Source: Paralichthys olivaceus
Lineage: Eukaryota; Chordata; Actinopteri; Pleuronectiformes; Paralichthyidae
DNA: 64,000 nt
Direction of reading: 5' to 3'
Assembly (NCBI RefSeq): GCF_024713975.1
Contig: NC_091112.1
Coordinates: 10,338,001 to 10,402,000 of the forward strand
In this document: in pieces, positions 15,501 to 18,500 of the stretch
Layout of the letters: the number at the start of each line of letters is the position of its first letter
Position numbering within the stretch: position 1 is the stretch's first letter
Position numbers and translations under genes: made by a program
The notes under the pieces: model-generated
The model's database searches: none
What the model saw: the letters and a program-made list of their open reading frames with translations, nothing else
Told to the model about the DNA's origin: nothing

Positions 15501-18500
15501 GGACACTTGATGACTTGAGCAGTATGGAGGCATGTTATGTTTTGTCATCTGAAGAAGAGGTCGTCTGGGCTAAAACACTGTTTAACCCTGAAACTCCAGA
15601 AGTGTTCTGTGAACTCAGACTCTTCACCCACCCCTCCACCCCGCACTATAATTTCATTGTACACCCTGTTCAATGACAATAAAGGCATTCTTATTCATTG
15701 ACATAGTGGTGAGTAGATAATGATTTGGTGAACTATCCCTTTAGGTTACTTTGCAGATTCAGATCTTACATGAAATCAGATTTAATGAAACAACCAGCTA
15801 CACCCTTATAATGCTGCTTGTGTTCAAAGTAATATTAAACATAATATTCATTTAATGAGAAATTAACAAAGTTCCCATCGAGTGCTTCTGCTTTTATTAA
15901 GTGTGTTGCCAGTTATACATTTGCACTTTAAGTGGAATTCCATTTTGTAATGAAATATTCTTACGTTGTGGTTTCCCCTCTGTTACTTTAGAAGATGATT
16001 TGAATATTTTTACACCACTCACCAGTTGACACTTTTTCAGCCTCTGAGTTTCTGTAAAAAAAAAAAAAAAAAAGCCTGGTTCACACCCTCCACTTCCTGT
16101 ACTCTCTGTCAGATTAACTCTGCCCCCTTGTGGCTCGTGCCGATACAGCCCTCCTTCTGCAGTGTGAGCACTTGTGATGGACCTTTTGTGTGTGTTTGTT
16201 TTTCTCACTCACTCTAAGGTCCCTGTATCGTCTTCTCTTGTGTCTGTACATGATGCCGCTGCTGCTCAGAGTCTCTTGTGTTAAAATGTCTTTGTGTCTT
16301 CAGTTTTTTGTTTACTTGTAGTTGCATAAGTCGCACAAGCAACCTGTCTTGATCTTTCTTTATCTCTGCATTTGCTCTATTGTCTTTTCCTCTTGTTGTC
16401 TCCTTTCCTCTTGCCTGTCTGCTTCTCTCTCTCCCTCTCTCTCTCTGTGTCAGAGAGAGCAGCAGGACTGTGCTGCCGTTTGATTGGCAGCTGTAAACGT
16501 GGCATGCCTAAACTGGCTGACTTATCAGTGAAGACCAAGGATATGTGGGAGATTCCCCGGGAATCCCTGCAGCTGATTAAAAAACTGGGCAACGGCCAGT
16601 TTGGAGAAGTCTGGATGGGTACGGACTGTGTTGCAGGGGGTGGGAAGGTAACAGCTGGAGCAAACCTGGATAAAGGAGTATTACTTCTTGGTTGTGTTGG
16701 GTCGACACAAACATCAGTAAAACCTTTCTGGTGTGGAGACACAAACAGACACTCTGTAAAGTCCAGTTCCTCTGACTGTGTTGTTCAGAGTGTCTCGTAA
16801 TAACTGCTACAAATATGGCCCACACATAATCTAGCAGCAGCTTCTAATTACAAAAGTAAAAGTGTTTAATATCCAGGTTTGCAGAGCTGTTCCTCCTCCC
16901 CTGGTGTTGCATGTGCATGTTCCATCATCTCACCTCCCCTCTTTGTCACCCCCCCCACCCATCTTTTCTCCCACCTCTCCACTGGTCTCACCACTTCTTC
17001 CCATACTCCCTATACGCCTTCATTTTCCTCCCCCACCCCCCATCCCTGGCTTCCATCTCCTCCACCATCAGGCAGTAATGACGGGCTGTGTTATTACCTG
17101 ACCCATGCCTGTGTCAACTCCACGCCGCTCACCATGGGCCTCGGGCGGGATGCCTGGGAGGTGCCCAGGGAGACACTGAAACTGCAGACGAAGCTGGGAC
17201 AGGGCTTCTTCGGGGAAGTGTGGATGGGTGAGACAGACGCCGCCAAAACTTTAGATGCTCAGCGTAACATGTGAGGTGTCTGTCCTGTAGCAAAGACTGT
17301 TGCTCAAGCCGGCCGTGGCTGGCCTTTTATATCAGTGTATGCAATAAATCCTTTTCACATTCAACCAAGTTCTTGTTGAAGCTGCCGTACAGTTTCCGTC
17401 AGTAAAACGCAGGGTGTGGGCCGAGCAGAGTTTCTCCCAGAAACCAGCCAAAGTCTGAGCCTGTCCATGTCGCCCAGGTGCGGCTGATGTAAGGCCGGTA
17501 ACCCTCCTTCTCTGCTAACACCCCCTGTTTCATGCATGCTCTCCAAGATAACAATCATTTGCATGTGACCAAGTGTGTATTTGAAACAGCATGCATACTG
17601 TGTGCATTATTTTTGATATTTATATCTGCATGCGTGGCTCTTTGTGTTCTATATGTAACAACTGCAGGATATACAGTCATCCACTTTTCAGTAAGCACAG
17701 ACAATTGTGTGTGCCTGTGTGTCTGTGTCTCTGGTGTATGTGCATTAACGCCTCCTTGTCTGTATGCCAGGCATGTGGAACGGCACCACCAAGGTAGCAG
17801 TGAAGACTCTGAAGCCAGGAACCATGTCCCCTGAGGCCTTCCTGGAGGAGGCCCAAATCATGAAGAGACTTCGCCACGACAAACTGGTGCAGCTCTATGC
17901 CGTCGTGTCCGAGGAGCCCATCTATATCATCACTGAGTTCATGAGCCAAGGTATCGGGCTGAGTAGACTGTCGTGCCTGTGACTGTAGATACAGTATGAG
18001 TCGCTGCTGTTTCAACAACTTTTAATCTGCATGTGGATCGTTTTTAAATCATCGGACACATGGTCATTTTCTTCTCTTTAAGTGCTTTAGTTCTCCCCGT
18101 CAGTGAGGGTTTTTTTCTGCGGGTTCTACACAGTGGGTTGTTTTGCTTGGAGAGACATAATCGACTGAAGATGTGAATGTGAGCATGAATGGTTATTTGT
18201 CTCTAAGTGTCGGCCTTGTCATACAGTGGAGACCTGTCCAGAGTGCCCCACCTCTCGCCCAATGTCAGCTGGGATTGGCTCCATAACCCCCCTGCAGCAA
18301 CCCTCAAGGGATAAACAGTATAGATGATGGATGGATGGATGACTTAGACACATGAGAAATTATTTCTAATAAAATCCTCAAGAATAAAAAAACTGGATCT
18401 GCACATGCACCAAAAATTATTCACTTGCTCATAAAGATGACTGTTTCAGATTTCCTGGCCAAATATGAACACAACGGTCAAATCAGATCAGTGGAAGGGA

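Follow-up and report, generated by a model that had tools for sequence, protein, structure and literature searches.

In the Src family of kinases, the linker that joins the SH2 and kinase domains is the segment clamped by SH3 in the closed kinase. FYN encodes this segment in two versions, the alternative exons 7A and 7B of FynB and FynT, and the two forms are described as differing in the binding and phosphorylation of KHDRBS1 and in tissue use, with FynT in blood and spleen (PMC9741552). The same paper, published in 2022, describes tandem duplicated exon substitution events, in which mutually exclusive tandem exons have been shared out among gene copies, including FYN, FGR, SRC, YES1 and FRK, and reports that, of the two exons present in FYN, a single one survives in each of human FGR, SRC, YES1 and FRK (PMC9741552). 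This is said there of human genes, and its passages on them mention no fish fgr with both. Here we describe such a gene in one fish genome, a 588-Mb assembly in 25 contigs. The sequence studied, which we call the window, is a stretch of 64,000 nucleotides (C20:10338001-10402000). We read the gene in it as the orthologue of FGR and its two linker exons as alternative, most likely mutually exclusive, and as the FYN 7A/7B pair inherited from the FYN/FGR ancestor, a reading to which we assign a probability of about 0.85. Retention of one exon by human FGR was known (PMC9741552); the addition made here is an fgr in which the two stand side by side. In the open-access literature, no description of such a fish gene was found among the matches listed, and RefSeq or Ensembl may list both transcripts. 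The published inference that FGR once had both exons becomes visible and testable in a living fish, and the gene is a second natural case in which splicing may exchange the linker that governs autoinhibition.

The coding region of fgr extends from start to stop codon over 12509..21175 of the window, on the forward strand as are all its exons, and contains ten other coding exons, all open and assignable for a Src-family kinase, in addition to the A/B pair. The second SH2 exon (14705..14854), which ends ...HYT in phase 1, is the 5' partner of both A and B, and the next kinase exon (17771..17950) is their 3' partner. Between them lie exon A (16454..16618; 165 nt, phase 1/1), with a linker and glycine loop of FYN 7A type, an A-B intron of 453 nt (16619..17071), exon B (17072..17227; 156 nt, phase 1/1), with a linker and glycine loop of FYN 7B/SRC/YES type, and the intron 3' of B (17228..17770). 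Both exons have AG/GT borders, gtgtcag preceding AGAGAG and GGATGG preceding gtacgg in A, and ccatcag preceding GCAGTA and GGATGG preceding gtgaga in B. Each encodes the SH2-kinase linker together with the first strands of the kinase domain, including its initial Trp-Glu and a glycine loop, and the motif GxGxFGEVW is intact in both, as GNGQFGEVW in A. The tandem exons are alternative versions of a single linker and glycine-loop segment with matching phases, and the translations are those given in the preliminary description of this DNA, as are the sizes, phases and spacing of the pair. Since the lengths of A and B are multiples of three, the frame is kept if both are included or both skipped, and a frameshift therefore cannot be the source of A/B exclusivity.

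In a search of the whole genome, exon A matched the fyn gene on C19 (E=3.6e-28, 84% identity) and that on C12 (E=1.5e-27, 85% identity), a strength of match that places the resemblance far beyond chance. The last 28 residues of exon A match FYN in PDB 2dq7 at 26/28 positions, and this entry and the FYN SH2 entries have the same type of linker, labelled 7A in line with the papers. For exon B the best matches in the genome lay in the linkers of both yes genes (66% and 64%) and of one src gene (63%); against PDB it was nearest to SRC, then HCK and, lower, FGR in 7uy0. Its identity is 33/52 to human SRC, 33/50 and 32/50 to fish yes, 32/52 to a provisional human YES1 sequence, and 28/52 to the B exon of C19 fyn, whose A exon is 47/56 identical to exon A of fgr. 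The likeness of exon A to FYN 7A that had been proposed is thus borne out, while exon B, proposed as of FYN 7B and SRC/YES type, is indeed of that type but nearer to SRC and YES than to the fyn B of this fish. The fgr pair shares with FYN 7A/7B the encoded segment, the order and the phases, with the same 165 and 156 nt in C19 fyn; unlike that pair, it sits in fgr, and fgr B keeps the third glycine (GQGFFGEV) where fish fyn B has GTGCFADV.

The two exons also differ in conservation between fish and human. The FGR linker is identical at 25/52 positions in B against 328/396 in the rest of the gene, while FYN A is identical at 54/56 and 54/55 in the two fish genes against 234/251 and 372/396. Linkers of SRC (42/51 and 41/50, with 361/395 and 358/395 in the rest) and of YES (48/50 in both fish genes, with 369/396 and 370/396 in the rest, against a provisional human sequence) were compared in the same way. 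Judged by these identities, exon B is the more freely evolved of the two, and B looks as if it had been freed once A existed. In the linker tree the B-type linkers of fgr (17072-17227) and fyn (L025:7342-7500) stand on long branches, 1.17 and 2.23; unlike these, the src and yes linkers and the tips of the A exons have short ones, and the tree carries a warning of long branches.

Searches with A and B as queries, in which the best candidates were scored, placed at least 12 Src-family linker loci, the window among them, at E < 1e-5 in one search or both; weaker matches to other kinases followed. The 12 genes yielded 111 exon blocks, though some of the genes were read incompletely. A-type exons occur in three genes among the matches listed, namely fgr in the window and the genes on C19 and C12, both fyn by tree. 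Fyn on C19 has A and B in the same order as fgr, at 165 and 156 nt, so that the first exon of fgr is of A type and the second of B type with the sizes of this fyn pair. In C12 fyn the A exon alone was found, again of 165 nt. A single linker exon was seen in two src and two yes genes (assigned by tree), in four SrcB-type genes and in one frk-like gene; the frk-like locus, so named by likeness, lies 0.47 Mb from C19 fyn. No relic of a B exon was found in C12 fyn in the 509-nt stretch downstream (score 28, P 0.52) or in the 142-nt stretch upstream (P 0.585), each against 200 resampled sequences. We note that C12 fyn has an A exon with no B found (L027:7264-7774, minus-strand gene) and C19 fyn has both exons; a division of roles between the two fyn copies is possible.

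The age of the pair was addressed with a tree of the linker alone, over 53 columns, covering this fish and human. The four A sequences, three fish and one human, form a single clade (98/97, starred), and a sister relationship of fgr A and fgr B is rejected (p-AU 0.00018). This tree, a kind of check that the preliminary description had proposed, supports its view that the pair predates the FYN/FGR split, as do the sizes and order common to fgr and C19 fyn and the saturation of synonymous sites in A. Read most simply, these sequence data suggest that the pair arose before FYN and FGR separated, that fish fgr has retained it whole and that mammalian FGR has lost one exon of it; it is this date that we infer. 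Among the B types the tree is less readily interpreted, as by its own warning long branches meet there: it does not join fish fgr B to the human FGR linker, although joining them is not rejected (p-AU 0.34).

How much older than the split exon A may be is a separate question. It could have arisen by copying of B in the FYN/FGR ancestor after the split from SRC/YES, an origin compatible with the inherited pair and to which we give even odds. It would explain why no A-type exon turned up, by genome search or exon reading, in either src gene or either yes gene of this fish, and it accords with PMC5224494, which cites Picard 2002 for FYN 7a as the younger copy. Against it, the free linker tree sets A outside the group of B, SRC and YES (82/85), though grouping of A with the fgr and fyn B types is not rejected (p-AU 0.08). 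Sharing of A by FRK, which PMC9741552 describes for human FRK, is neither supported nor rejected by the linker tree (p-AU 0.52). Eight introns, two per src or yes gene, were scanned for an A relic against resampled sequences, with P values per intron, and seven of the eight were not above these (P 0.21 to 0.98). The remaining one, the intron 3' of the linker exon of C16 yes, has an A-like match of score 54 (P 0.0005 with 2000 resampled sequences, uncorrected for the 8 introns). In a scan of 780 overlapping stretches that covered both strands, this was the top score away from linker exons, and 47 came second. This stretch has the core EDVWKITRE (L031, about 4740-4850, minus-strand gene), and we count it as chance or undecided because it is short, has no glycine loop and lies on the side of the linker exon where A would not be expected.

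An inherited pair could have fallen partly silent, and the splicing signals bear on this. Splice sites were ranked with a small scoring matrix, for which a rule located 93 acceptors in 111 exon blocks and 75 donors in 102. The ranks are rough because blocks without a site at the expected place were dropped and some acceptors were misplaced, above all in SrcB. On this rough scale the A acceptor ranks above 80/91 and the A donor above 23/73 sites of the fish Src-family genes, and the B acceptor above 31/91 and the B donor above 60/73; A would pair a strong acceptor with a middling donor, and B a middling acceptor with a strong donor. The pyrimidine share over the 52 nt before the acceptor is 0.90 for A and 0.85 for B; a longer tract is described for FYN 7a (PMC5224494), and fgr A leans likewise. 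The AG-free stretch, in contrast, is longer before B than before A in fgr (183 and 112), opposite to what the same source describes for FYN (PMC5224494), and its length before B makes a distant branch point possible. Steric enforcement of A/B exclusivity is unsupported, as the A-B intron has 453 nt. The hexamer TGCATG, which we take to be an Rbfox-type motif, occurs twice in this intron, the two copies touching at 16908-16919 (0.11 expected, P 0.004), three times in the intron 3' of B, at 17533, 17560 and 17627 (0.71 expected, P 0.04), and once in the A-B intron of C19 fyn (P 0.07). The cluster around B may mark tissue regulation, but as thirteen stretches were counted, eight of fgr and five of fyn, we treat it as a hint only.

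If both exons are used, fish fgr would yield an A-linker and a B-linker kinase with SH3, SH2, the remaining kinase domain and the tail in common, and by homology with Fyn the two would differ solely in the SH3-held linker and the glycine loop. As the linker is clamped by SH3, exon choice would set how firmly the enzyme is restrained, and it would probably determine the strength of autoinhibition and the SH3 binding partners as reported for Fyn. It is unlikely that one of the two exons is instead a silent relic that has an open frame but is left out of fgr mRNA. The fast evolution of B (25/52 between fish and human against 328/396 in the rest) and the middling donor of A would fit such a relic, but both exons have intact frames, usable splice sites and a GxGxFGEVW loop, and in a relic of that age one would expect decay, such as B seems to have undergone in C12 fyn.

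Inheritance of the pair from a FYN/FGR ancestor has also to be weighed against gene conversion, by which exon A would have been copied from fyn into fgr after the two genes split. Such copying would account for a likeness of fgr to C19 fyn that is much greater in A (47/56) than in B (28/52). Synonymous sites of exon A are, however, saturated between fgr and the two fyn genes (pS 0.87 and 0.76, against 65% and 67% for the other exons together), which excludes recent copying, and dN in A (0.136 and 0.126) is above that of the other exons together (0.075 and 0.078), the reverse of what conversion would leave. Single exons vary in synonymous difference, and it is the next kinase exon that is lowest (46% and 41%). 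Recent conversion predicts that synonymous divergence is low in exon A alone, and this was not found. Identity in A (47/56 and 47/55) is likewise lower than in the rest (226/252 and 348/397), and fgr A falls outside the fyn A exons, if weakly (78/14). Of the gene conversion that the preliminary description had put forward as a competing explanation, only an early event following the split still stands, and we consider conversion as a whole very improbable.

That the gene is fgr was examined with a tree from which the linker was removed (398 columns, 15 rows), in which the human FGR, FYN and SRC sequences had been compared with PDB entries and human YES1 was provisional. The window gene groups with human FGR rather than with FYN, SRC or YES (92/87, not starred), although joining it to the three FYNs to the exclusion of human FGR is not rejected (p-AU 0.089). 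Human FGR is a long branch (0.21 versus 0.047). The notion that the gene is a third, teleost-specific copy of fyn, with a pair that is simply FYN's, is very improbable. Placing it with the fyn genes of C19 and C12 is rejected (p-AU 0.0005), the tree unites it with human FGR, and around it lie the genes that surround human FGR on 1p36-p35. In favour of a fyn copy, FYN in PDB outscores FGR for the kinase part (511 versus 462 bits) and the SH3-SH2 part (304 versus 283 bits), a gap that fits the long human FGR branch. Seven stretches of the window were scanned against Pfam, four of which contain the domains DUF4683, 7tm_1 or PA26, with no Pfam match in the other three. They comprise sestrin exons (PA26) at about 730-1480, a DUF4683 protein at 35-37 kb, presumably AHDC1-type, and a 7tm receptor at 60739-61734 on the minus strand; the last is GPR3-like by 7tm_1 and by comparison with probe sequences, the margin being small (GPR3 269 bits, GPR12 262, GPR6 237). 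A WASF gene (53394-55872) is nearer to WASF2 than to WASF1 by the same kind of comparison. Human FGR, AHDC1, WASF2, GPR3 and SESN2 lie together on 1p36-p35, and with AHDC1-, WASF2- and GPR3-like genes and a sestrin all present beside the fish gene we take its fgr identity as settled. The assignment to fgr in the preliminary description is thus supported over the teleost fyn duplicate that it named as an alternative.

Chicken YRK, compared by means of a provisional sequence, probably resembles fish fgr in an A-type linker; the rest of the protein is 91% identical over 398 columns and falls inside the FGR clade. Unlike fish fgr, with its exon pair, it is known as a protein with an A-type linker. 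With YRK added, the tree follows the order of the species, (fish fgr, (human FGR, YRK)), its two supports being 91/87 and 92/88, both unstarred. Two other placements of YRK, with the FYNs (p-AU 0.0575) or only with fish fgr (p-AU 0.0567), are not rejected at 0.05. The FGR of PDB 7uy0, which we take to be human, is the orthologue of the fish gene and has a linker of B type, but unlike the fish gene it has no A-type segment in the protein, and its linker is 25/52 identical to fish B. This suggests that mammalian FGR kept B alone, in agreement with the 7B-like segment that the preliminary description had ascribed to human FGR and with the one retained exon reported in PMC9741552. As a lead from the provisional YRK sequence, A appears to be the exon used by FGR of birds, which goes by the name YRK. 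If that sequence is right, birds and mammals have retained, or make use of, opposite halves of the ancestral pair, which would explain simply why YRK looked like a kinase that mammals lack. On balance we favour a jawed-vertebrate FGR ancestor with both exons, of which fish would keep both, mammals would keep B only, their FGR becoming a blood-cell kinase, and birds would use A, YRK being avian FGR seen through A; YRK and mammalian FGR would then differ chiefly by reciprocal exon loss, and the pair may predate SRC and YES, which would then have lost A. YRK is treated as chicken-only in two reviews (PMC7352436; PMC8247114), one of which notes its 95% identity to black-swan FGR as a curiosity (PMC8247114), so that the likeness of YRK and FGR is already in print. 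A zebrafish yrk is reported in vascular endothelium (PMC2654924).

Genome searches also located the neighbours of fgr elsewhere. Close pairs of WASF and GPR3/6/12-like genes occur at four places in the genome, in the window and on C17 (4.19/4.21 Mb), C19 (12.45/12.40 Mb) and C22 (15.80/15.82 Mb), and two more WASF places, on C8 and C15, are without a nearby GPR3/6/12-like partner. No WASF/GPR pair was found by these searches on C12, C16, C2 or C6, which have the other fyn, yes and src genes. C17 also has a yes gene (1.84 Mb) and C19 a fyn gene (1.64 Mb), in both cases megabases from the WASF/GPR pair. The presence of these pairs together with yes and fyn on C17 and C19 is as expected after duplication of a chromosome block.
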